From IMG/VR virus record IMGVR_UViG_3300013132_000051, positions 1 through 63,522 of that record: 63,522 nt of DNA; one strand, given 5' to 3'. The stretch is from a virus. The position numbers were made by a program, and so were the translations under genes. The notes below the pieces were generated by a model that was given only the letters and a program-made list of their open reading frames with translations, did not search any database and was not told the origin of the DNA. This document shows, one piece after another, positions 14,504 through 63,522 of the stretch; position 1 is the stretch's first letter, and each line of letters begins with the position of its first letter.

Positions 14504-17500
14504 ATGCCCTCTTTCGCCAAGCGATACTACAACTACACGGGGAATCCCACGACGGTTTCTCGGGACGTGCCTCCCGGTGAATACTCGTGGGACACCGTCG
14601 TGTACCAGAGCGGGCGTCCGGTACTGGACGCTGAGCTCAACCTAACCCAAGAAGCCGCCGAGTACGCCCGCCTTCTCCTCGGGACGAAGACGGTATCCTC
14701 GGGGTTCCTCCGGGGCCAGAGCACCCGCGACTCGCTCCAGGACTACTTCTACTTTCCGGCCCCGGTTCCGGGCGACGAGAACAAGCTCGGCGTCCGCAAG
14801 CAAATCGCCTGGGTTGCGGGGATGCCCGTCGTCGTTGAGTACACGAACACGGCGACCCCCGGCGATAACGTCATCGAGCTTCCCGTTCCGTCCCAATCAA
14901 CGGGAATCGCAGCGACCGACATCAAGCGCACGGACTTTGTGTTCTTGGAGGTCTGGCGAACGCTCGTAGCCCCGTCGCCTCGGGCTTTCTCGACGGTTAC
15001 TGTGGCGACTCCGGCGAACCCGAACGCGATTACGATTGACGTGACCGTGGTCGCGGGTGCGCCGACGGCGGTGACCCTGACGACCGGCGTAGACTTCGCG
15101 GTCGGCGGCAACAACATCATCACGGCGACGAACCTCGCCACGGCTATCAACGCCAACCCCACGCTCAGCCTCTACGTCGCCGCAGCGAACAGCGGCACGA
15201 GCACCGTTACGATCACGACCCTCGGCGGCGGTGCTATCGGGAACGGGATTATCCTATCGAGCACGAACACGGCGACGCTCTCCCCTCCGGGCGGGCTCTC
15301 GCCGGTTCTCTTTACGGGCGGCGCGGACCGACTCAATAAGCCCCTCCCCGCCGGAACGTACCAGGGCGACGTTTACCGCCACGGCAACGTCGAGAGCGAC
15401 CCGACGACCTGGCTCCCGGACGAGCTAGTAGATCCGGTTCTCAACTCCGAGTCAGCGCAGCGAGTCCAGGTCCAGTACCGGCTTCGCGTCTACGGGGCAA
15501 GCCTCCCGTCAGGAGTCAACCCCAAGACAGAGCCGGACGGGTTCTCTAACGGGAGCCTCTACGCTCAGGGCGCTCAGGGCGCTCCCGTTGCGACCTATCC
15601 GTTCGTTCCGGCAGACAACTCAACCGTCTCGGCCAACTCTGACTCGACCGCCTACGGGATCGTGGATCCGGGCCTGCAAATCGCTGGAGACGGTACTCAG
15701 GCGAGCGCCAACGCTCTCGGCACCGTAGACGGGTTCGTGTACGCGATCCCCGTGTGCTTCGTCTTTCGGCGCTCTGAGTACACAACCCCCCTCCTCGGCG
15801 GATTTTCCCCAGCCCAGGGGGCGAACGCAGGGCCTCTCTACGCTCACGTCGGGTTCAACAACACGAACATCGACGTAACCGGAGCCGCGTTCCCGATTGC
15901 GGCGGGCGCGAGCGACCGTCCGGACGGGCTGTTCGCGGACGTGATCGTCCCCTCGGACGTACTCGACCTCCGGCGGCACGTCACGCCTCCCGGATACGAC
16001 TTCGGAAGCGAACTCAAGTACCAGCTCCAAAGCCTCCTCGACAAGAAGACGGCGACCTGGCAAGTGGACGGCTCTGACTGGTCGAGCATCGGCAACGGCT
16101 CCGGGGACCAGTCTACGTTCCCATTGTTCTGCGACGAAATCGGTCGCGAGAACGCCCAGGGAGGCAATCCCGCAAACGGCTCGGGCGACACTTTCCGAGG
16201 CACGACAATCCGTAACTTCGACCACGTCTCTCGCCGCTTCGGTTCCCAGAGCGTAGTCGAACGAATCGTGTTCGAGGTCTACCCGAACGTCCCTCCTCCC
16301 ACGGGTATCACCGTCACCAAGGCGGCGGGCGTGAAATGGTACGAGGGCGACCAGGTCGCCATCGACTTCACGACGCTAAACCCCACGACGACGCCGGACT
16401 GGGTGACACCCTCTCTCGCCGTGGCGAACGTGGCGAACTTCTGGCCGACCGGGACTCTCATTACGGACGTTCTCTCGGTCTACCACGACGACGGGAACTC
16501 GACCGTCAACGTCGCCCAAGAAACCCAGGTTTCCTTCGTCTCGGGAATCGGGACGAGCGCGGTCACGCTCACCCTCGACGCCAATCCGACGACCGTAGAC
16601 GAAGGCGGTCTAGCGGTGGCCCACCCGATGGTCGGCGATGCGGGATCCGGCGACGTAGGCTCGCCCCGTCGAATCTTCATCGAGCTAGAGATCACCTACC
16701 CGACGGGCTTCGGGCTAACCCAGACCCCCGACGTTCAGGTCATTCCCGACCCCGCCTCGGGGTATCCCGGCTACATCGCCGGACCCATCGTTGAGAACAA
16801 CGTCACTCAGCGACCCGTAAATCCGACCGGGGGCATGAAGACGGACTGGATTCCCGCGCCGAAGATGCGGCCTGGGTACCGGGAAACTCGCCTCGACCAG
16901 AAAACCGCAACCGGCGCTCCGAATACGGCGGTGGTTAGCGATACGCTCGTGACCTCCTCCTCAAACATCCTCCGAACTCCGCGAAGGTTCTTTTTCGACT
17001 CGATGCTGGCGAACGGCGCGGCTCCCGCAGCGGGAACGACCTACGGAAGCTCGGAGCGACTCGTGAATCTCGCGGTTCCGACGACGGGCGGATTCCAAGA
17101 AGCCGTCGCCGTGGATTACTATCCGCAGGATCCGGTTCCGAACTGGGGCGGAGCAGGCGGCGGTTACCAGGTCGCCGTCTACTACCGGACCCAGGCCCCT
17201 CAGACAGCGGGCACCCAGGCGGGAAGTCTCCCTGCAACGCTCCTTCCGACGGAGCTAATCGTCGAGCCGGTCGCTATCTCGCCGGAAATCTGGACGGGCC
17301 AAACCGGCAAGGGCTCCCCCGACCTCGCCTACCCGTATGAGTCGCCGCTCGATCCGATTCCGGTATCGACGGGCCTCCCCGTCGTCGGTACGCCCCGCGA
17401 GTGGTACTTCTCGGCGCTCTCGGAAGTAACCGTCTCGGACTTCTCGGCGGCAACGGGCCTGTTGTCCTTGCACTCGTTCGTCCAGGTAGACGGCACGAAC

Positions 17501-53524: not shown

Positions 53525-56011
53525 CTACACGGGGGAGAGAGTCTGGTTACGGGGAGCGAGGCCGAGATTCTCAAACGAGATGCCCGTCAGGGGGTCCAGG
53601 TCCGACCCGCAGAGAATCCCCCCGTTGGCCGGACCGGGGGAGACGAGCTTGACCCCGGTGGTGCCCTTGACCGTGACGGAGCCGGTAAGCGACTCCAGAG
53701 TCGCGCCCGACTGCGAAGACACCGAATACGCCCCCGTCAACGCCGAGATACCTACGTCGCCCGTGAACACGTCTAGGGCGTACCCGGAAGCCGAATCGAG
53801 CTGGAGGGAGTTGAGGCCCGCGACAGCGGCGAAGTCTCCCTGGAGCGTCTCAAAGGTGAAGCTCCCGACGGTAATCGTCGTGGAATGGTTGCCCTGGAGG
53901 GTGATTTCTTCGACCCTATCGCCGTAAGTGAGCGTGTAAGTATCGGTATCGCCTCCGGCGTTGCCCGTAGCGGGGGTCGAGTTGATCTGCAAAGAGTGCG
54001 ACGCGCCGTTTGCCGGATTAGAATCAGCAGGCCCCGAGACGACCGTGGTCATGCCCCCCGAAACCGACGCCGTGTACGAGGAGGCGTTGATATTGACCCG
54101 CTGGCCGGACGAGAGCGAGAGGGAACTCTGGGCCCGGAGGTCCAGCGTCGCCGCGTCGGCAATATCAATGCGGGGAGCCGCGAGCCGGATACCCGAAGGG
54201 GAAGCGAGAGTAACCCCCGCCGTACCGGCAATCAGTACCGACGGAACCGTACCTCCGGTGGAGGCCGAGGGGTCCCCTCCGTCGAGCGCGGTCGAAGCCC
54301 CGGAGGTAGGGGTACCTGAGGCGGAGATAACGACCGTCCCGTTCGGAGCGAGAACCGCGACGCCGGTATTACCGGGACCCGAGGAACCGGAGAGTGAGAG
54401 GCCCCCTGAAGCCTCTAGGGAGAGAAGGCCCCCAGAAGAAACGCGAGCCGAGCCGACGAGCGAAATCTCGGCGGCGGACCCCCCGGCCCCGACCCGAGCC
54501 CGGTACGCGCCGGACTTTGTCCATGACGAAAACGACTCCCGCCCCCCGACAACCGGAGGAATAACCCGAAAGAGGGAGGCGGCGTGGTCCCCGAGAGCCG
54601 CGCCTAACCCCGAATAGAGGCCGGGAGCCGTACCGGGAGCGCCCCCAAAGACAACCGGCTTTAGCGGGAGCCCATAGAGAGGGCGACCCGTAACCGAGTA
54701 AGGGTCGTTACCGACGACCGAGCCGAGCACCCACTCGACGAACGCCCGGTTGGGCGAGAGCGAGTAGGGGGAGGCGTCGTTGACCGAGCCCGTAGGGAGC
54801 CGTTCGGATTCAAAGCCGTCGGTCTGCTCAGTGACCGGGAGCGTCCCGTCGCTGGTGTGAGATACTTCTACGCGGTACTCGGTAAGGGAAGAGCCCGGAG
54901 CGCCGTCGCCGGGAGGGGCGAGCGCATTCACGACGCCGGTAACGGGGAGCCCCCCGGCTCCCGGAGTAACGCCGACGCGGTAGAGGGGCTTGCCCGCGTA
55001 CGCAACGGAAGCGTCTCCCGGATTAGGGTCCCCCCGGAAGCCGGTCGAGAGTACAAACCCACCCCACCCGAGGAACGTAAACGGATCGAGCGAATCGGGA
55101 ATCGTTCCCCCCGCCTCGACGAAGCGCGACGCCGGAGCGAGGCCGGGAGACTCGCCCTCAACGAACGTCGCGTCCGCGTAGCGGCGAGAGAAGATCAGCC
55201 CCGGAGTAAGCAGACCCTGGGGCTCTGGGTTCGGAGGGAATGAACTCGTGTCGAGGGGAATACCGTCGGCCCCCGTCTGGGGAATCGGCGCATCCCACCA
55301 CAGCCCATCCGAGAACATCGCCGTCGGCAATAGTCTAGCCTCGCGAGCGACCGGCCCCGAGTAGACCCGAGTACCCGAGGTAACGGCGTAGCTCGCGACG
55401 GACCTAGCTACGAACGCCGAGTCCGCGTCTCGCAGGGCCAGCTCGCACCCCCGCCGGTTCGCCAGCAAGACAGAGTCGTCTAGTACGAGGTCGGAGCCTT
55501 CCGAGCTAGAGCAGAGCACGTTACCGGGACCGGCGTGGCGGAGTTTGAACCGGACCCGTTCGGCGAAGCCGATAGCCGTGGCCCGGTCCTTTGGGGTATC
55601 TAACCCCTCCCCCGGCCCAAACCTAGAGAAGGGCGTCCACTCGTGGCCCATCCACGGAGCCGGAGGAACCCACCCCAGGATAACCGGAGTCCTAGCCGAG
55701 GCGGTACCGGAGGACTCCCGAGCCGCCCACCCGACCAGGCACAGGTCCCCCCGCTCAGGCAACGCCCCGAAGAAGTGCCGACGCCCTCCGCCGGGGAGAG
55801 TCAGGTCTACTCCGGCGTGCTCGAAGGTATCGGCTTCGCCCGTGAGCACGACGAGGGTGCATTTTAGCTCCTCGTACTGGATCTCTTTGAGCCGAGCGAC
55901 GGAGATGGCTAGCTCGGCCCAATTCTTCGACGGGTTTGCCGCTGAGACCTCTTCGCCCCGGAGTTCCCCCCGGATAGCGGAGCGGCTCATATGGGGGGTA
56001 CTCATCGCCAT
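53525..56011 (-). CDS. baseplate spike, VgrG/gp5-like
   Basis: The ATG at 56011 has a GAGGAG ribosome site ten bases upstream. The first 150 residues form an OB-fold-like region (YEELKCTLVVLTGEADTFEH, RGDLCLVGWAARES, PVILGWVPP). From about residue 540 the chain turns into short repeated strands (GGLLSLEASGGLSLSGSSG, GVTLASPSGIRLAAPRIDI, ATLDLRAQSSLSLSSGQRV), the intertwined beta-helix of VgrG and gp5 spikes. Such proteins form the membrane-piercing needle of contractile tails. No lysozyme domain is seen. It stands apart from the other baseplate genes. Confidence 0.75.
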   Translation of the reverse strand: MAMSTPHMSRSAIRGELRGEEVSAANPSKNWAELAISVARLKEIQYEELKCTLVVLTGEADTFEHAGVDLTLPGGGRRHFFGALPERGDLCLVGWAARESSGTASARTPVILGWVPPAPWMGHEWTPFSRFGPGEGLDTPKDRATAIGFAERVRFKLRHAGPGNVLCSSSEGSDLVLDDSVLLANRRGCELALRDADSAFVARSVASYAVTSGTRVYSGPVAREARLLPTAMFSDGLWWDAPIPQTGADGIPLDTSSFPPNPEPQGLLTPGLIFSRRYADATFVEGESPGLAPASRFVEAGGTIPDSLDPFTFLGWGGFVLSTGFRGDPNPGDASVAYAGKPLYRVGVTPGAGGLPVTGVVNALAPPGDGAPGSSLTEYRVEVSHTSDGTLPVTEQTDGFESERLPTGSVNDASPYSLSPNRAFVEWVLGSVVGNDPYSVTGRPLYGLPLKPVVFGGAPGTAPGLYSGLGAALGDHAASLFRVIPPVVGGRESFSSWTKSGAYRARVGAGGSAAEISLVGSARVSSGGLLSLEASGGLSLSGSSGPGNTGVAVLAPNGTVVISASGTPTSGASTALDGGDPSASTGGTVPSVLIAGTAGVTLASPSGIRLAAPRIDIADAATLDLRAQSSLSLSSGQRVNINASSYTASVSGGMTTVVSGPADSNPANGASHSLQINSTPATGNAGGDTDTYTLTYGDRVEEITLQGNHSTTITVGSFTFETLQGDFAAVAGLNSLQLDSASGYALDVFTGDVGISALTGAYSVSSQSGATLESLTGSVTVKGTTGVKLVSPGPANGGILCGSDLDPLTGISFENLGLAPRNQTLSPV

Positions 56012-56100
56012 AGGCTCGATCTCCTCTCAAGGAGAACGATACGGGGTAGCTACCGACCTGCCTGGAGTAGCCCCGAGAGAGCGAGGCCCGAGATCTGCCC

Positions 56101-56125
56101 CGGACTCCCAGAGACCCGGAGTCCG
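56101..56125. promoter_or_regulatory. hairpin in spike-gene leader
   Basis: CGGACTCC pairs with GGAGTCCG across a nine-base loop, about 90 bases upstream of the spike start. It could be an attenuator or a protein-binding site. Confidence 0.4.
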
Positions 56126-56290
56126 TAAAGCCCGTACCCACTCTCGTTTGACGAAGCCCGCGAAATACCTAACGAATCTGGGGGTCGAATATCTCTGATA
56201 AAAGAAAGAAAATCGTTTCTCGGATCTCTTTAGCGAATCTTTCTAGACGAGAGGGAACCGGGGGCGTAGGCTCTGGGCTCTTTGAGCTTT

Positions 56291-56323
56291 CCTCCCTGTA
56301 CTAGCCCGTACCTGAGAGGGAGG
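56291..56323. promoter_or_regulatory. hairpin in divergent region
   Basis: CCTCCCT pairs with AGGGAGG, with an inner GTAC/GTAC pair in the loop. It is of unknown role between the two divergent genes. Confidence 0.4.
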
Positions 56324-56384
56324 ACCGGAAGGGGAGAGACTCTCCGGGTTCTATTCGGAGGGGTATCCCGTCTAGGGGGGAGGG

Positions 56385-56429
56385 GGAACCGGATGACCGG
56401 AACCGGATGACCGGAACCGGATGACCGGA
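56385..56429 (+). repeat. three tandem 14-bp repeats
   Basis: The unit GGAACCGGATGACC occurs three times without a gap, followed by GGA. It lies about 200 bases before the sigma-like gene and may bind a regulator. It is too short and ungapped for a CRISPR array. Confidence 0.95.
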
Positions 56430-56624
56430 CGGGGCCGAAGAGCCCGATCCGTTCACTCTCCCCCCGAGGGGTTCGATTCGGAAACCGAACCCCCGTCGAA
56501 ATCGGTCTGAAATTTCTTACTTCGATTCCGAAACGGGGTTCACCCCGGCGAAGTTCCTAACCCGCGAGGACCGCGTGGACATCCTAGTACGCAACGAACC
56601 TACTCACACCCGGAGGCTCTACTG

Positions 56625-57452
56625 ATGAACGCGCTGTATCTTGCTCCCTCCCGGAGTTCTTTCCCTCTCCCGGTCGGCGCTCTAGGAGGAGAGGTTCCAA
56701 TCTGGGAAACCTGGGAGGGTATCCCCTCGCGCTCCGGGTGGAGGCGGTCGGTACTCCCGTCCGGAGTCTCGGTGTCTTTCCGTAGGCGCAAGAAGAGCGC
56801 CCCCCTCCTTCAGGGAGAACCTGCGCTGATGCTCGTGCGCGATCTGGGGCCGGAGCCGGTAGAGCCGGAGCGGGTCTTTGCCCGACCCGCCCGAGTAGAG
56901 AACGCTCTGCGTCCTGACGGTCGCGGTATCGACCTAGCAAAGCGAGGCGACGAAGTTCGCAAGCTCTTCTACGCGGCGTTTGCGCGTGGGCTCATCCGGG
57001 ACGGGATCGACCCCGAGGAAGCTCTCCAGGAAGTCTACAAGGGGCTGCTCTCCCGGAACCGGGGGACGTGCCCGTTCGACGTCAAGAAGAGTTCGTTCGG
57101 CCACTACGTCCACATCGTCACGCGGTGCGTGCTCGCGAACTTCGTCCGCAAAGAAAAGAAGCGCGCCCTCTACGAGACTTCCGGCGAGGAGCTAGCCAGC
57201 TACTCCGGCGAAAACCGGGAGTGGGAAATCCCGGTCCCCGAAACCCAGGAAGAATCCCGCCGGGGGAGGGAGTGGCTCGCGGAGAAGCTCGCGGGGTTTG
57301 AATCCCCGGAGAGGGAGACTCTCCTACGGGCCGTGGTGATGATGTCTGAGGGGGCTTCCCGTCGGGAAGCCGCGAAGCTCGCCGGAGCCGACTTCCGGCG
57401 ACTCGGCTTGGCTTTGGAAGCTCTCCGGTCGCAAGTCACCTCCCCGGATTGA
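56625..57452 (+). CDS. sigma-factor-like protein
   Basis: ATG 56625 has GGAGG nine bases upstream and gives 275 aa. After a disordered N-terminal 90 residues comes a region-2-like block at about 105-180 (DPEEALQEVYKGLLSRN, SSFGHYVHIVTRCVLANFVR, KEKKR), as in sigma-70/ECF factors. A region-4-like helix-turn-helix follows at about 226-268 (SPERETLLRAVVMMSEGA, SRREAAKLAGADFRRLGLAL). Region 2 normally binds the -10 element and core RNA polymerase. It could direct host polymerase to phage promoters, and the TTAGTT/TACTAG elements downstream are candidates. The match is by eye and the similarity is moderate. Confidence 0.68.
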   Translation: MNALYLAPSRSSFPLPVGALGGEVPIWETWEGIPSRSGWRRSVLPSGVSVSFRRRKKSAPLLQGEPALMLVRDLGPEPVEPERVFARPARVENALRPDGRGIDLAKRGDEVRKLFYAAFARGLIRDGIDPEEALQEVYKGLLSRNRGTCPFDVKKSSFGHYVHIVTRCVLANFVRKEKKRALYETSGEELASYSGENREWEIPVPETQEESRRGREWLAEKLAGFESPERETLLRAVVMMSEGASRREAAKLAGADFRRLGLALEALRSQVTSPD

Positions 57453-57681
57453 GCCGGGTAGATTTCTCACCCGCTAGCGCGAGCGCCCCGGCCCGCTTCC
57501 GGGCGTGAGCCTCTAGTGCCGCGCCGATACCGTCGGTGCCCGCCCAAAGTGCCCGCCCGAGGGGAGTCTCTCCCCGGCCCGTCTCGATGAGCCGGTTGCG
57601 CTCGGACTCCAAGAAAGAGATGAGCGCCCCGTGCTCCTCTGGGGTGGCGATTACTTTGGCGGTGATGCGTCGGGCCTTCAT
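57436..57681 (-). CDS. hypothetical protein, 81 aa
   Basis: The 81-aa product has a basic start (MKARRITAKVIATPEEHGAL) and helix ISFLESERNRLIETG. It overlaps the sigma-like gene by 17 bases at the 3' ends. Unrecognised. Confidence 0.58.
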   Translation of the reverse strand: MKARRITAKVIATPEEHGALISFLESERNRLIETGRGETPLGRALWAGTDGIGAALEAHARKRAGALALAGEKSTRLNPGR

Positions 57682-57723
57682 CCCGGACCGTACCCCGGAC
57701 CCCCGGTAAGAACTTTCGGGCGA

Positions 57724-57790
57724 CGGAACGACGAAAACCGCCCGGACCGGCTCCCGAGGGGGGAGTCCGATCCGGGCGGTATTCGTTCCG
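57724..57790. terminator. hairpin terminator after 57807
   Basis: The core is ACCGCCCGGA with TCCGGGCGGT (57737-57746 and 57771-57780), with an inner CTCCC/GGGAG pair. Outer arms CGGAACGA and TCGTTCCG extend it. It lies just downstream of the minus gene that ends at 57807. Confidence 0.7.
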
Positions 57791-57806
57791 GGTTAGGCGG
57801 GGGGTC

Positions 57807-58094
57807 TCAGATTTGAGCCCAACCCACGAGGTCGCAGCGGAACGCCCGCGAGCCCGTCTCGTCACTCAAGACAACTACGTCCCCGACGCTTGTCGAGCGG
57901 GTGGGTCCGACGAGCGCCCGGACCTCCGGGTTCTCGTACCACGCCGCGTCAATCGAGTTGGTGAGGCGGAACGCCTCCTCCAAACTCGCCGTCTGGAGGA
58001 TCGCTACGACCCGGTAGTGGGCCGCGTCGAGGGGGAGGGGAGCCCCCATCCCGAAGTTGGGGTTCATCGCGTGGTAGACAGTCGCCGTGGTCAT
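57807..58094 (-). CDS. YodL-like small protein, 95 aa
   Basis: The 95-aa product contains EEAFRLTNSIDAAWYENPEV and RSTSVGDVVVLSDETG, ending CDLVGWAQI. The RStSVGDV signature is that of YodL-like proteins, often found as small genes or in polyvalent proteins of phages and conjugative elements. The activity is unknown. It overlaps the upstream gene by ATGA. Confidence 0.75.
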   Translation of the reverse strand: MTTATVYHAMNPNFGMGAPLPLDAAHYRVVAILQTASLEEAFRLTNSIDAAWYENPEVRALVGPTRSTSVGDVVVLSDETGSRAFRCDLVGWAQI

Positions 58095-58447
58095 GTCGCC
58101 TCCTCTTCGTCCTCGTCAAAGTCCTCTTCGTTCTCTTCGTCCAAGTCCTCGTCGTCCAAGTCCTCGTCGTCCCCGTAGATGTCGGGGTTCGCCTCCGCGT
58201 AGGCGATAGCGCGCATCGCAGCGCGCTCGCCGTACTTCGCGACCCACTCCGCGAGGGCCTCCCCGGAGAGGGGGGCACCGTACTGCTCAATGTCATCCCC
58301 GTCGGCGTCTTGGCCGACGCTCACGACGGGGCGCACTTCGGACTCCTCCGTGTCGAAGGTGACCCTGCCGTCGCCATCCTCGATGGCGACGGCGTAGACG
58401 AGGAAGTCCTCGCCGTCAAACTCCATGTCCAACTCCATCTTCGTCAT
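58091..58447 (-). CDS. acidic protein, 118 aa
   Basis: ATG 58447 starts MTKMELDMEFDGEDFLVYAV. The last 35 residues are almost all Asp and Glu (DDEDLDDEDLDEENEEDFDE). Such acidic tails occur in DNA mimics and in proteins binding basic partners, but no fold is recognised. A TTAGTT-N17-TACTAG promoter lies 20 bases upstream, and the 5' leader is identical to that of the gene at 61320. Confidence 0.7.
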   Translation of the reverse strand: MTKMELDMEFDGEDFLVYAVAIEDGDGRVTFDTEESEVRPVVSVGQDADGDDIEQYGAPLSGEALAEWVAKYGERAAMRAIAYAEANPDIYGDDEDLDDEDLDEENEEDFDEDEEEAT

Positions 58448-58466
58448 GTCTAATCTCTCCTTCGCC

Positions 58467-58495
58467 CTAGTACCGAGCGAGCCTCGCGAAACTAA
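58467..58495 (-). promoter_or_regulatory. phage promoter P1 (TTAGTT-N17-TACTAG)
   Basis: On the minus strand TTAGTT (58490-58495) is followed after 17 bases by TACTAG (58467-58472), with CTCGG just before it. It precedes the acidic-protein gene and lies just after a hairpin. Confidence 0.75.
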
Positions 58496-58513
58496 CCTGA
58501 AAAGCGAAACCGA

Positions 58514-58539
58514 CCCCCGCTCGCTGAAGCGAACGGGGG
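58514..58539. terminator. hairpin upstream of P1
   Basis: CCCCCGCTCGCT pairs with AGCGAACGGGGG with one mismatch. It lies downstream of the gene ending at 58549 on the minus strand, insulating it from P1. Confidence 0.7.
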
Positions 58540-58548
58540 CGGGGGGGT

Positions 58549-58761
58549 TCACGCCGCTTCCAGAGCCCGGATGATCCGGCCCCGGTGCAGCTCGTAGAGG
58601 TCGCGGGCGGATCCCGCCATCGTGTGGGGCTCGCCGGTCACGAACGACACGGCCTGGAAGTCCGCGACTTCCTTGAGATCGTGTCCCTGGACCGTCTGGG
58701 TTTCGACCCGCCCGGAGATCCGGTAGTCGATCCCGTTGAGAGCGATCAGCACTTCCTTCAT
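58549..58761 (-). CDS. hypothetical protein, 70 aa
   Basis: The 70-aa product is strand-rich at the start (KEVLIALNGIDYRISGRVET) and helical at the end (ARDLYELHRGRIIRALEAA). GAAAGGAG precedes the ATG. Unrecognised. Hairpins lie on both sides. Confidence 0.64.
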   Translation of the reverse strand: MKEVLIALNGIDYRISGRVETQTVQGHDLKEVADFQAVSFVTGEPHTMAGSARDLYELHRGRIIRALEAA

Positions 58762-58805
58762 GAGAGGCTCCTTTCGTGAGAGGGTTGGAGCGAACGAGCG
58801 AGCGT

Positions 58806-58837
58806 CACGCCCCCGTCGTTGAATCGGCGGGGGCGTG
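58806..58837. terminator. hairpin after 58846 gene
   Basis: CACGCCCCCG pairs perfectly with CGGGGGCGTG across a 12-base loop, nine bases beyond the stop of the gene ending at 58846. Confidence 0.8.
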
Positions 58838-58845
58838 GGTGAGGA

Positions 58846-59466
58846 TCACGACGCGGCCTTGTGGGTGCCGTCCTCGTTGAGCCAGGGACAGGCGCGGTTG
58901 AAGGCGAGGCGGGCATCCGGGCCCAGCTCCCGGACGAGGTGCTGGAGGGAGTCCATCCGGCGCTGTCCCGCCAGGTAGACCCCGTGGTCGTCCGAGTAGT
59001 TGTAGTACCAGTCCATCCCGCCCAGGAGCCGGTTGAACTGGTCCAAGGGCGTCTCAACGACCTCCTCCCAGGCGTTGAAGACCTCCTCGAACCCGTAGGG
59101 GAACTGGAAGGTGGAGACCACGGGGGCCACCTGAGAGGCGAGGTCCCGGACCACCTGGTCCCGCGCTCGGGCGTGCTTCGCGTACTCGGGGTTGGGCCGC
59201 CACCCGAAGCGGCGGTCAGGCTGACCCGACTTCGTGAGGCGCTTGGGGAGAAGCGCCTCGATGCCCTGGGTCTTCTCCTCAAGGGCGGCGTCGGCGTCCC
59301 GGCGGATCTGGTCCAGCTCAGATTTCTGCTGCTGGAAGGCAGAACGGAGGTGCTCGATGAACTCCCGGCGGAGCGCCATCCGCTCCTCGCGGGTGGGCAC
59401 CGCCCGGTACTGCTCGAAGGTCATCACCTTGTCGCCGATGGAAACGCGAACGTAGGAAGTGTTCAT
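58846..59466 (-). CDS. hypothetical protein, 206 aa
   Basis: ATG 59466 starts MNTSYVRVSIGDKVMTFEQY, with AAGGAGA upstream. The N-terminal half is helical (RREFIEHLRSAFQQQKSELD). The C-terminal half has many aromatics (FQFPYGFEEVFNAWEEVV, MDWYYNYSDDHGVYL). No family recognised. It follows the 59501 gene in the same direction. Confidence 0.66.
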   Translation of the reverse strand: MNTSYVRVSIGDKVMTFEQYRAVPTREERMALRREFIEHLRSAFQQQKSELDQIRRDADAALEEKTQGIEALLPKRLTKSGQPDRRFGWRPNPEYAKHARARDQVVRDLASQVAPVVSTFQFPYGFEEVFNAWEEVVETPLDQFNRLLGGMDWYYNYSDDHGVYLAGQRRMDSLQHLVRELGPDARLAFNRACPWLNEDGTHKAAS

Positions 59467-59500
59467 GTCTATCTCCTTGAGAGGTGGGGGGGTGAGGGAT

Positions 59501-59827
59501 TCAAGCCGCCGAGGGGGCCACCGCCGCCTTCGGGCGGTTGGCCTCCTCGACGAGCTGGGCGCTGTGGCGCAGCGCGATGGAGAGCGCCTTGTCGAGGTGG
59601 GGGCCGCTGAGCGAGCGGCCCGAGCGGACCCAGCGGGCGTAGTAGCCCCCCCGGCGGGCCGAGGGAGCGTTGAACCCGCGCCCGTTGTTGTGGCGGGTCG
59701 CATCGACCGCCTGCTCGTCCGCCGTCTGACGGGCGAACAGGGCGAGCATCGCCCGCTCCACCGCCTTGGGGTTGGAGCGGAGGAGCGCGTTGATCTCGGG
59801 GCGGGTCCAAGTCTTCGTGGTCGTCAT
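59501..59827 (-). CDS. conserved phage protein, RGGYYARWV family
   Basis: The 108-aa product contains W-TRPEINALLRSNPKAVERAM, ALFARQTADEQ and RRGGYYARWVRSGRSLSGPH. This matches a conserved small family seen in phages and plasmids (AveRAil.ly.RQT.dE...GyyA.Wv.sGR.LsG). Its role is not known to me. It is preceded by promoter P2 with a hairpin in the leader. Confidence 0.78.
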   Translation of the reverse strand: MTTTKTWTRPEINALLRSNPKAVERAMLALFARQTADEQAVDATRHNNGRGFNAPSARRGGYYARWVRSGRSLSGPHLDKALSIALRHSAQLVEEANRPKAAVAPSAA

Positions 59828-59844
59828 GTGAATCTCCCTTTCGA

Positions 59845-59861
59845 GCGGGGGTCATCCCCGC
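59845..59861. promoter_or_regulatory. leader hairpin between P2 and 59827
   Basis: GCGGGG pairs with CCCCGC across five bases in the transcript leader, next to the ribosome site GGGAG. It may affect translation of the downstream gene. Confidence 0.45.
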
Positions 59862-59869
59862 CCTTCAGC

Positions 59870-59898
59870 CTAGTACCGAGCGAGGCTCGCGAAACTAA
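59870..59898 (-). promoter_or_regulatory. phage promoter P2 (TTAGTT-N17-TACTAG)
   Basis: On the minus strand TTAGTT (59893-59898) is followed after 17 bases by TACTAG (59870-59875). The spacer is almost the same as in P1 and ends CTCGG. It faces the gene at 59827. Confidence 0.75.
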
Positions 59899-59951
59899 CC
59901 GGGAATCGACCGGACCATCCGGCCACCCGCGTCTCGCTCTCTCGCTTCACC

Positions 59952-59980
59952 GGAGTACCGAGTAGCCCATCCGGAACTAA
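59952..59980 (-). promoter_or_regulatory. phage promoter P3 (TTAGTT-N17-TACTCC)
   Basis: TTAGTT (59975-59980) has a 17-base spacer ending CTCGG, then TACTCC (59952-59957). No gene starts before the next promoter P2. Confidence 0.6.
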
Positions 59981-59989
59981 CCGGAAATC

Positions 59990-60014
59990 GACCGGGGGGT
60001 TTCGCCCCCCGGTC
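59990..60014. terminator. hairpin between P4 and P3
   Basis: GACCGGGGGG pairs perfectly with CCCCCCGGTC across five bases. It lies about 20-45 bases downstream of the expected P4 start, so P4 could yield only a very short RNA if it terminates. Confidence 0.75.
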
Positions 60015-60037
60015 TTTGAGCCGTTCGTCTCCTCGCC

Positions 60038-60066
60038 CTAGTACCGAGCGGGGAGCTCAGAACTAA
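60038..60066 (-). promoter_or_regulatory. phage promoter P4 (TTAGTT-N17-TACTAG)
   Basis: TTAGTT (60061-60066) has a 17-base spacer ending CTCGG, then TACTAG (60038-60043). It lies 19 bases after the ligase stop and has no gene of its own. Confidence 0.72.
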
Positions 60067-60084
60067 CCGGAAATCGACCGGGGC

Positions 60085-61236
60085 TCACTCGTAGTCGCGC
60101 ACCCCCTTGAACGCGGGGAACCGGGGAACGCCGTCGCGGGTCAACTCCTGGTAGGAGTAGGTCACGAGCGAGCCGACCGCCGGGGGTGCCTCGCGCTCCC
60201 GGTCGGAGAGGCCGGTGCCGATCTTGAACTCGACCGTCCCGTTCGCCGTCCGGCACACGAGCGCGCCGACCCGACCCTTGTGCTTGCCCCGCCCCGGCTC
60301 GTAGCCGATGACCCGCGCCTCCGCGTCGTGCATCCGCTTGCACTTGAGGAGCGACCAGGTGCGCGTCCGCTCGTAGGCGGAGTTGGGAGCCCGGAGCATC
60401 ACGCCCTCGCCCCCGTTCCCGATCACGTCGTCCATGTAGGCGTCGAGGTGCTCGCGCCCGTGACAACGCTCTTGCTTCAGGATCCGGTAGCCGAGGCCCG
60501 AGAAGCTCCCCTGCGCCCCCGGACGGGACGGGACGATTCCCATGAGCTTGGCGAGCCCCGCTTGGCGCTGCTCAAAGCCACCGGGAAGGTCCGGAGCGTC
60601 GAACATCCAGAACGCGATCCCGCGCCACTCGGCGTCATCCGGCACGAGTTTCCGGACGATGCTGACCGTCTCTTGGAACTTCCCGCGACCAGCGAACAAC
60701 TCCCCGTCGAACACCCAGAACTTCGGGAGCTGGCTGAGGAACCACGACGGGGCGTGGATCTCGTTGCCGAGGCGGGTGAGGAGCTTCTCGCCCGTCCAAT
60801 AGGCGCGAACCCCATCGAGCTTCTCCGACATCCACCAGCCCGAGGGGTCCTGGCCCTCCCACGAGTGGGCGAGCATCACGCTCACCTCCTGCGGTTTGGC
60901 GACCGGAGCGGGGGTGACCGCCGCGCCCCGGATCGGAAGTACGGGCGTCCCGTGGTACACGGGGACCGGCGGAGCGGTCGGCTTCCACACGGGAGGCCAA
61001 GCCGGGGCCGCGTTGCCCGTCGCCGCGATTCCAGCGCGGTCCCGCGCCGCCTGCGGCCAGCAAGCGGGGTCCACGTTCGCCCGAATGTGCTTGCACGCGC
61101 GGGAGTCGATGTTCCCGCCCATGTTCCGCCACGCGGGACACGAGCAATCGATCACGCCCGCGATCTTGCGGATCGTGTACGGGCTCTTGCCGGACCCCTG
61201 CACCTGGAAGGAGTCACCGTTCGTCATCATTCGCAT
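60085..61236 (-). CDS. SWIM zinc finger-ATP-dependent DNA ligase fusion
   Basis: ATG 61236 with AAGGAG upstream gives 383 aa. Residues 31-50 hold C-x-C...C-x-H (CSCPAWRNMGG...RACKH), a SWIM zinc finger. A Pro/Ala-rich linker runs to about 118. The ligase domain follows: motif I EKLDGVR with nucleophile K139, motif III FDGELF (D177-E179), motif IV GGEGVMLR, and motif V LLKCKR. The C-terminal GALVCR...YQELTRDG region is the OB fold. Such ligases seal nicks during phage DNA replication or repair; the SWIM finger probably helps DNA binding. No TTAGTT promoter lies directly upstream. Confidence 0.9.
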   Translation of the reverse strand: MRMMTNGDSFQVQGSGKSPYTIRKIAGVIDCSCPAWRNMGGNIDSRACKHIRANVDPACWPQAARDRAGIAATGNAAPAWPPVWKPTAPPVPVYHGTPVLPIRGAAVTPAPVAKPQEVSVMLAHSWEGQDPSGWWMSEKLDGVRAYWTGEKLLTRLGNEIHAPSWFLSQLPKFWVFDGELFAGRGKFQETVSIVRKLVPDDAEWRGIAFWMFDAPDLPGGFEQRQAGLAKLMGIVPSRPGAQGSFSGLGYRILKQERCHGREHLDAYMDDVIGNGGEGVMLRAPNSAYERTRTWSLLKCKRMHDAEARVIGYEPGRGKHKGRVGALVCRTANGTVEFKIGTGLSDREREAPPAVGSLVTYSYQELTRDGVPRFPAFKGVRDYE

Positions 61237-61284
61237 CTGTAAGTCTCCTTGGGTTGAAGGTTGTTGGTCGGGCAGAACGTCTTT

Positions 61285-61312
61285 GACCCGGCCCCTTTTC
61301 AGGAGCCGGGTC
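61285..61312. terminator. hairpin after 61320 gene
   Basis: GACCCGGC pairs with GCCGGGTC across 12 bases, eight bases beyond the stop at 61320 on the minus strand. The T tract is poor, so some read-through to the ligase gene is likely. Confidence 0.65.
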
Positions 61313-61319
61313 GGGGGTC

Positions 61320-61703
61320 TCACCCCTCGTAGTTCCACGGGGGGTCCCACCCGTCCCAACGACCGGCCCCCTCATCGTAGTAGCGATCCTCCGCCTCGTC
61401 ATCGGCGGCGGAATCGCAACACGACTCGTAGTCGGCCTCCATCGCGGCCTCCGCTGCTGCCGTGATGTCGTCGTCGGCCTCGATGACGTTGCCGTCCTCG
61501 TCGGTGATCCCACCGTCGAGAAACGGGCGCTCATCCCACGAGGGATCGTCGCGACCCCCGCGCTGCGCGGGCTCCACGGAATACTCGGCGGTGAGGGTCT
61601 TCATGACCCACCACCCGAGTTCCTCGCCGTCGGCGTCCTTTTCGGGAGCGCCATCGACGATGCTAGGGACCCACACCTCTGCTTCAAACTGAACCTTCGT
61701 CAT
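61320..61703 (-). CDS. acidic protein, 127 aa
   Basis: ATG 61703 starts MTKVQFEAEVWVPSIVDGAP. The second half is Asp/Glu-rich with aromatics (EADDDITAAAEAAMEADYES, DDEAEDRYYDEGAGRWDGWD). It shares its promoter, leader and MTK start with the acidic gene at 58091, although the proteins are otherwise hard to align. Function unknown. Confidence 0.68.
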   Translation of the reverse strand: MTKVQFEAEVWVPSIVDGAPEKDADGEELGWWVMKTLTAEYSVEPAQRGGRDDPSWDERPFLDGGITDEDGNVIEADDDITAAAEAAMEADYESCCDSAADDEAEDRYYDEGAGRWDGWDPPWNYEG

Positions 61704-61722
61704 GTCTAATCTCTCCTTCGCC

Positions 61723-61751
61723 CTAGTACCGAGTACGGGGTTCAGAACTAA
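61723..61751 (-). promoter_or_regulatory. phage promoter P5 (TTAGTT-N17-TACTAG)
   Basis: TTAGTT (61746-61751) has a 17-base spacer ending CTCGG, then TACTAG (61723-61728). The stretch 61695-61733, covering the start codon, ribosome site and -10, is identical to 58439-58477. Confidence 0.76.
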
Positions 61752-61760
61752 CCTGAAATC

Positions 61761-61788
61761 GACCGGCCCTCTGATTGAGGGGCCGGTC
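61761..61788. terminator. hairpin after 61805 gene, next to P5
   Basis: GACCGGCCCTC pairs with GAGGGGCCGGTC with one bulge across five bases. The minus-strand RNA continues GATTT directly into P5, so terminator and promoter are fused. Confidence 0.75.
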
Positions 61789-61804
61789 GTCTCAGATTGA
61801 GAGG

Positions 61805-62170
61805 TCAGTCCCAGCGGACCGACCGGCTCAGATAGTCGTCTGCGCCGAATCGCTCATCCTCGATGCGAGCGATGAGCGCCTCGTCCTCCCGCTCCAGAAG
61901 GTCAGCGGGCGAGCCCTCGACGGGGTCCGTCGGGTCCCAGACCTCCGAGGTCCGGGGGTCCGGCTTCGTGTCGAGAGCCCGAGCAAGGAAGCGGGCCGTC
62001 ATCGGCGGGCACTCCGCGTTCGGGCTCATCTCAGCGTGGAAGTGGGCCCAGCGCGCCCCGTCCGGCGCGGTCGCCACGATGTAGTGGATGTACTCCCGCT
62101 TCGGGAGGCCGTACTCGTTGCGGCCCGCGAACGTCGGCGAGCGGTGCCAAGTGTAGCTGAACGTCGTCAT
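61805..62170 (-). CDS. hypothetical protein, 121 aa
   Basis: The 121-aa product starts MTTFSYTWHRSPTFAG and has REYIHYIVATAPDGARWAHF. The acidic C-terminal half contains LLEREDEALIARIEDERFG. Unrecognised. It is read from P6 and ends 17 bases before the terminator hairpin. Confidence 0.66.
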   Translation of the reverse strand: MTTFSYTWHRSPTFAGRNEYGLPKREYIHYIVATAPDGARWAHFHAEMSPNAECPPMTARFLARALDTKPDPRTSEVWDPTDPVEGSPADLLEREDEALIARIEDERFGADDYLSRSVRWD

Positions 62171-62190
62171 GTGATTCGTTTCCTTTCGTT

Positions 62191-62219
62191 GGAATACCGA
62201 GCGAGCCCCGAGGAACTAA
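62191..62219 (-). promoter_or_regulatory. phage promoter P6 (TTAGTT-N17-TATTCC)
   Basis: TTAGTT (62214-62219) has a 17-base spacer ending CTCGG, then TATTCC (62191-62196). It lies about 20 bases before the ATG at 62170 and just after a strong hairpin. Confidence 0.68.
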
Positions 62220-62234
62220 CCGCGAAAAGTGAAA

Positions 62235-62274
62235 CCGCCCGGACCGACCCCCGCGAGGGAGCCGGTCCGGGCGG
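62235..62274. terminator. strong hairpin upstream of P6
   Basis: CCGCCCGGACCG pairs with CGGTCCGGGCGG after an inner near-paired CCCC/GGG section. On the minus strand a TTTCACTTTT tract follows. It terminates the CobT-like transcript. Confidence 0.82.
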
Positions 62275-62290
62275 CGAGTGTGCCGCCTGA

Positions 62291-62341
62291 GAGAGCGGGG
62301 GGCCGAGGGTGAAGGGGAGGAAGTCCCCGACCCCCGCTCTC
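62291..62341. terminator. hairpin at the end of the CobT-like gene
   Basis: GAGAGCGGGGG pairs with CCCCCGCTCTC across a 29-base loop that itself has a GGGGA/TCCCC pair. It starts two bases beyond the stop at 62344, giving a double terminator with the hairpin at 62235. Confidence 0.72.
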
Positions 62342-62343
62342 AA

Positions 62344-63522
62344 TCAAGCAGCGCGGACCTTGCGGCCCCGGCCCCGGCCCGCTCCGCCGACCACCAGCTC
62401 GTGGAGCTTGGCGACCAGGGGGCGGGGGATGTCGGCCAGCTTTTCAGCGTAGACCGAGTGCTCGAAGGTGGTCGTGACGTAGCGGGAGTCGCGACCGAGG
62501 CCGACTCCAACGACCATCACGCCCGCCTCCGCAGCGCGGCGGAACTGGCCCTTCAGAACCTCCGCGTGACCCGAGTCGGGCTGTCCGTCCGTGAGGACGA
62601 AGATGACCCGGTACCCCTCGCGCCGCGTCGAGAGCAGCTTGAGGGCGTGCTCGACACCGTCCGACATCGGCGTTCCGCCCGTAGCGCGGAGCTTCGCGAG
62701 GCGGGGAGCCGCCGAGCGCCACCGCTCGTCGAATCCCTTGAACACGTCGATGTCCACGCCGTCAGCGCGGTGCGCGCCCATCGCCTTCATCTCCGCCGAA
62801 GCGGCGTTGTAGCCGCCGGGGTGCGAGTAGGCCGCCGACTGGCCGTTGGTCGCGAAGCCGGTGATGGCCGACTTCGCGCCGACCGCCTCCAGCGCCTCGC
62901 CCAGAGCGAGCGCGATCTTGGCCGCGCCCTCCAGCTTGTCGTGCATCGACCCGCTCTGGTCGATGACCGTGACCGCTGCGACGCTCGTGTCCATGGTCAT
63001 GTCGTCCGCCGCAAACGCGCGGTTGGGCTCGCGCCCGCCGCGAATCGAAGCGACCGAGTCAACCAGGAACCGATCCGAGAGGATCGGGCCGCGCTTGAGG
63101 CCGTGCTCGCGAGAGCCATCCTCCAGCGCCCGGAACATCGTGCGGAGCTTCGCCTTGAGGAAGCTCGTCTCCGCCTTTGCCGCCGACGCGAGCTTGTCGA
63201 GCTTGCGACCCTCGCCGGAGTCGGGGTTGCCGACGCGGACCTCGCGGTCAGCGTTGGTCGAGTAGGGACGGTAGGCCCGCTCGCCCGTTTCGAGCGTGCC
63301 GTCCTCCTCCTTGCGGGCGTCCTTGAGTTCGCCCTGGAGCGCCGAGGCGTAGTCCTGAAGGCCCGCGCCGTTCTGGCCGTCCTTCAGGAAGTCGCCCGCC
63401 GTTTCCGACGTGGCCGCGCCACCGCCCGAGCCGTTGCCGCCCGAGCCGGTTTCGCCCTGAGACGCCTCGCTCTCCCCGTCCGAATCCCCGTCCGAGCTGT
63501 CCCCGTCCGAATCCCCGTCCGA
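62344..63522 (-). CDS. CobT-like von Willebrand A protein, 5' end cut off
   Basis: The frame is open to the right edge, so at least 392 residues are the C-terminal part of a longer protein. It begins with an acidic Ser/Asp/Gly linker, then ETSFLKAKLRTMFRALEDGS. A VWA domain follows with MIDAS motif TVIDQSGSMHDKL, TGGTPMSDG and VIFVLTDGQPDSGH. An acidic linker, KL..lmRA-type helix and late VWA is the layout of CobT, the co-chaperone subunit of aerobic cobaltochelatase that works with the AAA+ CobS. In phages such proteins may serve another MoxR/CobS-type remodelling role. Whether a CobS gene lies upstream cannot be seen here. Confidence 0.78.
   Translation of the reverse strand, partial: SDGDSDGDSSDGDSDGESEASQGETGSGGNGSGGGAATSETAGDFLKDGQNGAGLQDYASALQGELKDARKEEDGTLETGERAYRPYSTNADREVRVGNPDSGEGRKLDKLASAAKAETSFLKAKLRTMFRALEDGSREHGLKRGPILSDRFLVDSVASIRGGREPNRAFAADDMTMDTSVAAVTVIDQSGSMHDKLEGAAKIALALGEALEAVGAKSAITGFATNGQSAAYSHPGGYNAASAEMKAMGAHRADGVDIDVFKGFDERWRSAAPRLAKLRATGGTPMSDGVEHALKLLSTRREGYRVIFVLTDGQPDSGHAEVLKGQFRRAAEAGVMVVGVGLGRDSRYVTTTFEHSVYAEKLADIPRPLVAKLHELVVGGAGRGRGRKVRAA

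Follow-up and report, generated by a model that had tools for sequence, protein, structure and literature searches.

Does a phage sigma factor read promoters of its own in this DNA? The window, by which we mean the whole stretch of 63,522 nt that was analysed (a 63.5-kb virus record, 64% G+C), carries a sigma-like gene at 56625, here called sigA, and six copies of a promoter-like element at 58467 to 62221. The locus raises the question of whether these elements are promoters and, if so, which factor reads them.

Repeated elements and hairpins in the window

The pattern TTAGTT-N12-CTCGGTA matches the window exactly six times, with every copy on the minus strand and within 58471-62219 (Table 1), where simple arithmetic gives a chance expectation of ∼0.002 per window for an exact match to 13 fixed bases. 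The rest of the window holds no match at zero or one mismatch, and the next best is a single match with two mismatches on the plus strand at 11716. All six copies lie outside predicted genes. Upstream of P2, the space that separates the ligase gene from the gene at 59827 holds P3 and P4, arranged in tandem. These results bear out the sequence-only reading, which had described six intergenic, minus-strand TTAGTT elements with 17-base spacers and last hexamers of TACTAG (four times), TACTCC and TATTCC, found nowhere else in the window, with P1, P2, P5 and P6 just before a start codon. Its hexamers hold as letters in the copies but not as the conserved cores, which are GGTTA and CTCGGTA, both invariant across all six; TTAGTT and TACTAG were set aside as the true boxes, since comparison across copies and relatives favours these cores. 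An extra box, CGATTTC or CGATTCC, lies upstream of four of the six copies. When the upstream regions of the window were searched for pairs of words, the element was the top match, with a score of 18.6 against 13.8 for the best of 15 shuffles. A scan of 56000-63000 for sigma-70 promoters gave no match at the scanner threshold, and the elements are not TTGACA/TATAAT-like. Across all viral contigs the exact motif has only four stray matches, none with the surrounding context, so that its letters are private to this phage.

Table 1. Features of the window. Distances run from the end of the element to the ATG.
Feature	Coordinates	Strand	Description
sigA	56625..57452	+	ECF-like sigma factor, 275 aa; sigma-2 at residues 101-185, sigma-4 at ∼208-271 (Pfam, PDB profile, AlphaFold)
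P1	58467..58497 (match 58471-58495)	-	GGTTAGTT-N12-CTCGGTACTAG; last hexamer TACTAG; 19 nt before ATG of gene 58447-58091
P2	59870..59900 (match 59874-59898)	-	last hexamer TACTAG; CGATTCC box upstream; 42 nt before ATG of gene 59827-59501
P3	59952..59982 (match 59956-59980)	-	last hexamer TACTCC; CGATTTC box upstream; tandem, upstream of P2
P4	60038..60068 (match 60042-60066)	-	last hexamer TACTAG; CGATTTC box upstream; tandem, upstream of P3, directly after ligase gene
P5	61723..61753 (match 61727-61751)	-	last hexamer TACTAG; CGATTTC box upstream; 19 nt before ATG of gene 61703-61320
P6	62191..62221 (match 62195-62219)	-	last hexamer TATTCC; 20 nt before ATG of gene 62170-61805
Hairpin	58504..58552	-	just upstream of P1; z -5.0
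Hairpin	59990..60014	-	between P4 and P3, extending into CGATTTC box; z -3.3
Hairpin	61750..61798	-	just upstream of P5; z -8.4
Hairpin	62234..62275	-	just upstream of P6; scored terminator-like; z -5.8
Shared 50-nt stretch	58428..58477	-	P1 -10 core into first codons; 92% identical to 61684-61733 (P5)

Significant G+C-rich hairpins lie directly upstream of P1, P3, P5 and P6 (z -3.3 to -8.4), so that most units read gene, hairpin, element, gene. The hairpin before P1 is likely the terminator of the preceding unit. Because the CGATTTC box of the window overlaps a hairpin's 3' arm, terminator and promoter roles are inseparable there. In the stretch 59950-60090, P4, P3 and P2 follow one another with intervening hairpins, and P4 and P3 have no gene separating them; lost genes may have left them behind, or they may give rise to very short RNAs.

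Could the elements be mobile cassettes of promoter and terminator, retained chiefly as sites where recombination shuffles genes, as with the PeSLs of T4-type phages? The hairpins at four of the six copies would suit this, as would the tandem of P4, P3 and P2 without genes between them and the 46 of 50 nt that P1 and P5 share into the coding region of genes whose proteins are otherwise unrelated. We consider such a role possible but doubtful: promoter function, unlike recombination, accounts for the strict spacing of the boxes and their proximity to start codons, and a cassette would add to the promoter reading without replacing it. PeSL promoters are host sigma-70 early promoters. The window shares with them the stem-loop and promoter-like element in intergenic regions (four of six with a significant hairpin) but not the host sigma-70 type of promoter.

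A common layout in different letters

The tail genes, DNA ligase and other genes of the window mostly show 43-58% protein identity to LR745208.1 (W01), a 485-kb metagenomic phage, to G005, a 266-kb IMG/VR contig, and to G022, a 106-kb contig. Judged by protein similarity, the window is a piece of a lineage of huge phages to which LR745208.1 is related. Searching the viral contigs with an alignment of five homologues brought up 27 sigA loci, many of them on contigs 100-485 kb long; the single sigA sequence gave no match in the same viral contigs, and the window protein had none in PHROG. On a contig of a Terriglobia MAG (L273) there is a sigA homologue with 65% identity over 81 residues, which is a hint of related phages infecting Acidobacteriota, or else a binning error; the 8.8 kb searched there held no convincing copy of the element.

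For each contig, genes were predicted by a simple script and all pairs of 5-mers at gaps of 12-21 were counted in the upstream regions. In all 11 sigA phages examined, the top pair is a bipartite element with a common layout and different letters (Table 2). Pair scores run from 18.6 to 168.6, against shuffle maxima of 13-16 in the same phages (highest 16.3). The motif set of LR745208.1 is also present in G025, a near-identical 485-kb contig. No such pair was found in three DNA-ligase relatives, all fragments in which no sigA was found (G006, G014 and G007). G009 was dropped as a control without sigA; it has a weak GGTTCA-N19-TATAAT signal with four sites (score 16.8; shuffles reach 15.5).

Table 2. 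Top word pair in each sigA phage. Sites were counted by weight matrix, except in G013.
Phage	Top pair	Sites	Element
Window	TTAGT-15-CGGTA	6
G022	GTTAC-15-TCCGT	18	GGTTAC-N14-CTCCGTGG
G005	ACTAA-20-TTAGG	11
W01	TAAAA-16-CGATA	56	CTAAAA-N15-CCGATAGG
G024	GTTCA-17-CGTAT	23
G023	GGTTG-17-CGTAT	60
G027	TTCCC-15-CGTAA	13
G026	GTAAC-15-AGTAG	65	GGTAAC-N14-GAGTAGG
G028	CTTAT-14-GAGTA	42
G012	CGTAA-17-GTAAG	101
G013	CGCAA-16-CGTAT	25 (pattern; only intergenic matches counted)

Together the 11 phages hold ∼420 sites, of which ∼383 are intergenic with G013 counted for intergenic sites only, in genomes whose non-coding share is mostly 9-15% (23% in G012 and 26% in G013, the two most distant phages). The sequence-only reading had named random occurrence within genes as the pattern that would speak against it; in relatives of up to 485 kb this was not found (∼380 of 420 intergenic). 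Most sites lie within 60 nt of a start codon, and the weight matrices gave only 0-5 matches in reversed-genome controls. Spacing in W01 is identical at 50 sites, with three at +1, one at -1 and one at -2. The elements thus have the form of sigma-dependent promoters, that is, two conserved boxes at a fixed spacing of ∼16-18 bp, upstream of start codons and oriented with the gene. When aligned, the boxes are GGTTA-like and C-S-G-T-A-like, ∼17 bases apart, the same form as ECF promoters of the GGAAC / CGTA or CGTC kind. A CGATT[C/T] box at constant distance is common to the window, W01, G005 and G022, whose -35 letters differ. In most units of G022 (L203, 4331-11242) the -10 core CTCCGTGG ends only ∼10 nt before the ATG, which would allow nearly leaderless transcripts.

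Structural genes were mapped in four phages, and none of their 89 sites falls within the structural block, against ∼10 expected from its share of gaps; the combined P(0), the product of the four per-phage values, is ∼1.6e-5. This points to a non-structural regulon, which we infer to be probably early-middle in its timing.

The sigma factor and the reading of the elements

The sequence-only reading had called the product of 56625 sigma-like, and profile and structure comparison both return a sigma-2/sigma-4 fold. The Pfam match of the window protein to sigma-70 region 2 is weak (E 0.009, below the cut-off), Sigma70_r2 being found in 20 of 25 homologues with a best E of 5e-12; the sequence signal for region 4 is weak, with Sigma70_r4 in 2 of 25. 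Against the PDB, the family profile has one good match, a sigma-H factor, over regions 2 and 4 (E 1.9e-7). The AlphaFold model has a confident sigma-2 domain, a linker, a sigma-4-like HTH and a disordered N-terminus, with nothing ordered between sigma-2 and the HTH, an arrangement of sigma-4 without sigma-3 or sigma-1. Foldseek gave weak E-values for this model (best 0.04). The best 50 VIA-align matches were all sigma factors, led by the ECF types AlgU, SigE and RpoE; the top Z was ∼8, a value that alone is inconclusive for a helical protein on that scale. As profile and model describe it, the window protein is a two-domain ECF-like (group 4) sigma factor with both sigma-2 and sigma-4. A subgroup of sigA proteins (L178, L179, L182, L184, L185 and L186) has a conserved N-terminal domain of ∼90 residues (..EHGGHRV.. 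TFDRYFR), which was not seen in window sigA. The beta-prime RNA polymerase domain was not found in any of 11 relatives; the control search found it in 14 of 14 cellular genomes.

We consider it very probable, on comparison of the sequences, that the elements are real promoters, and probable that sigA reads them. The tie to 56625 proposed by the sequence-only reading gains support, in that a repeated intergenic element of the same layout accompanies sigA in every relative examined. Over the 11 phages, the more alike two sigA proteins are, the more alike their motifs tend to be (Mantel r 0.48, p 0.0008), a correlation that common descent alone could produce. Two observations weigh on the other side. 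The sigA proteins of G005 and G022 are 83% identical as aligned from sigma-2 to the C-terminus and their -35 boxes are ACTAAT and GGTTAC, which indicates that more than sigA determines the letters there; and the conservation of the sites, 20-50 bits, is above what an ordinary promoter needs.

In the explanation that we judge best, and that has good likelihood, host core RNA polymerase with the phage ECF-like sigma factor of 56625 would read the bipartite promoters. These would consist of a -35 core GGTTA and a -10 core CTCGGTA with ∼17 bases between them, in many cases preceded closely by a CGATTTC box. Host RNA polymerase with host sigma-70 would first make sigA, and sigA would then redirect the host core enzyme to private promoters that follow terminator-like hairpins and precede the start codons of small accessory genes by 10-45 nt. 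The promoters would serve a non-structural regulon of a huge phage.

The first step of this cascade fits the sigA genes themselves, as sigma-70-like promoters are commoner before them than in shuffles (Fisher p 3e-6, for related sequences that are not independent). L180, a near-twin of LR745208.1, has TTGACA-16-TATATT 59 nt before sigA, and TTGACA-17-TAGGAA lies upstream of sigA in L186. For window sigA itself, a sigma-70-like promoter is not clearly present (p 0.30). Three head-to-tail GGAACCGGATGACC-like copies (56383-56430), which are possible protein-binding repeats, lie in the long gap upstream of this gene. Upstream of G012 sigA (L195, 9703-9886), a sigma-70-like promoter is overlapped by two near-palindromic repeats, TCTACGTGGTAGA / TCTACGCGGTAGA, which are a possible operator controlling that gene.

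An alternative is that a host sigma factor, primary or ECF, reads the elements and that their spelling follows the host. It is usual for host sigma to serve early phage genes, and the promoter of window sigA is unclear as noted; we nevertheless find this unlikely. Zero sigma-70 consensus matches were found at the scanner threshold, the spelling of the elements tracks sigA, and three relatives without a detected sigA show no element. Moreover, sigma-70-like promoters of the ordinary type precede sigA in relatives, which implies that the host primary sigma there uses its usual code.

Another phage factor, such as a second sigma or an activator binding CGATTTC, is quite improbable as the reader. 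Within the four closest phages no box is better conserved than CGATTTC, their -35 letters differ, and additional sigma genes occur in five relatives (G005, G012, G013, G023 and G035). However, the motif is present in LR745208.1, G024, G026 and G027, where no sigma-like gene other than sigA was found, and in more distant sigA phages, which have it without CGATTTC. The extra sigma factors at 16508-17323 in G005 (L112) and 72792-73925 in G012 (L139) are more classical; G023 has further ones of this kind at 191234-191986 (L232) and 155277-155903 (L230), giving up to three sigma genes. That the elements are operators or RNA leader elements would suit their high information content, but is very improbable for asymmetric sites that always point toward the downstream gene with two cores at a fixed spacing of ∼17 bases, and a leader function does not fit P3 and P4, which are far from start codons.

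A wider proposal builds on reading by sigA and stands, in our judgement, evenly balanced. Each phage of the lineage would have its own code, made of a diverged ECF-like sigma and six to ∼100 matching promoters on a common layout; in one subgroup CGATTTC would stay fixed while the -35 letters turn over. If so, the match of phage-specific letters to each sigma would mean that sigma and promoters co-diverge and that co-infecting relatives are insulated from each other.

Comparison with known systems

Jumbo phages that lack an RNA polymerase ('group 2') probably use sigma homologues on phage-specific promoters (PMC7824862; PMC13282480), and phage sigma-70 genes are mentioned for huge phages (PMC7162821). 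The sigA phages resemble them as large phages without a detected RNA polymerase and with sigma homologues predicted to use phage-specific promoters; in the parts of those sources available, such phages are thought to steer host RNA polymerase by their own sigma, and the promoters are predicted in general terms only, with none given. The 11 sets described here, with ∼420 predicted sites and a matching sigma gene each, make promoter use, timing and co-evolution testable in vitro. In phiEco32, gp36 reads the single-box promoter tAATGTAtA (PMC8948821). That system likewise has a phage sigma without a phage RNA polymerase and a phage-specific promoter, but gp36 lacks region 4, whereas sigA includes a region-4-like domain and the elements found with it are two-box ones.

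The PeSL cassettes of T4-type phages combine a stem-loop and a promoter between small accessory genes (Arbiol 2010, Comeau 2014; cited in PMC4503421). The window elements resemble them in their stem-loops, in their position in gaps between small accessory genes and in their partly duplicated copies; they differ in being not sigma-70-like and in coming with a phage sigma gene.

A phage sigma that reads a two-part promoter is proven for Salmonella phage 7-11, where SaPh711_gp47 reads late promoters of the form GTAAtg-(16)-aCTA and transcription starts 6-9 bp beyond (PMC8948821). In the literature searched, whose coverage was incomplete, we found no description of sigA-phage promoters; two-element phage-sigma promoters are thus known from 7-11, and lineage-wide private versions appear unreported. 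As a set of mutually distinct putative sigma-promoter pairs, they are potential tools. No close relationship between sigA and gp47 is detectable (hhalign probability 1.3% over 47 columns; hmmsearch 1.5 bits). The likeness to 7-11 lies in the two-part promoter, in an ECF-like phage sigma on host core RNA polymerase and in the few bases per box, and the G026 element is much like the 7-11 promoter. The difference is one of extent and of target: 7-11 has only eight sites, serving only late genes, whereas the sigA phages have six to ∼100 sites, outside the structural block.
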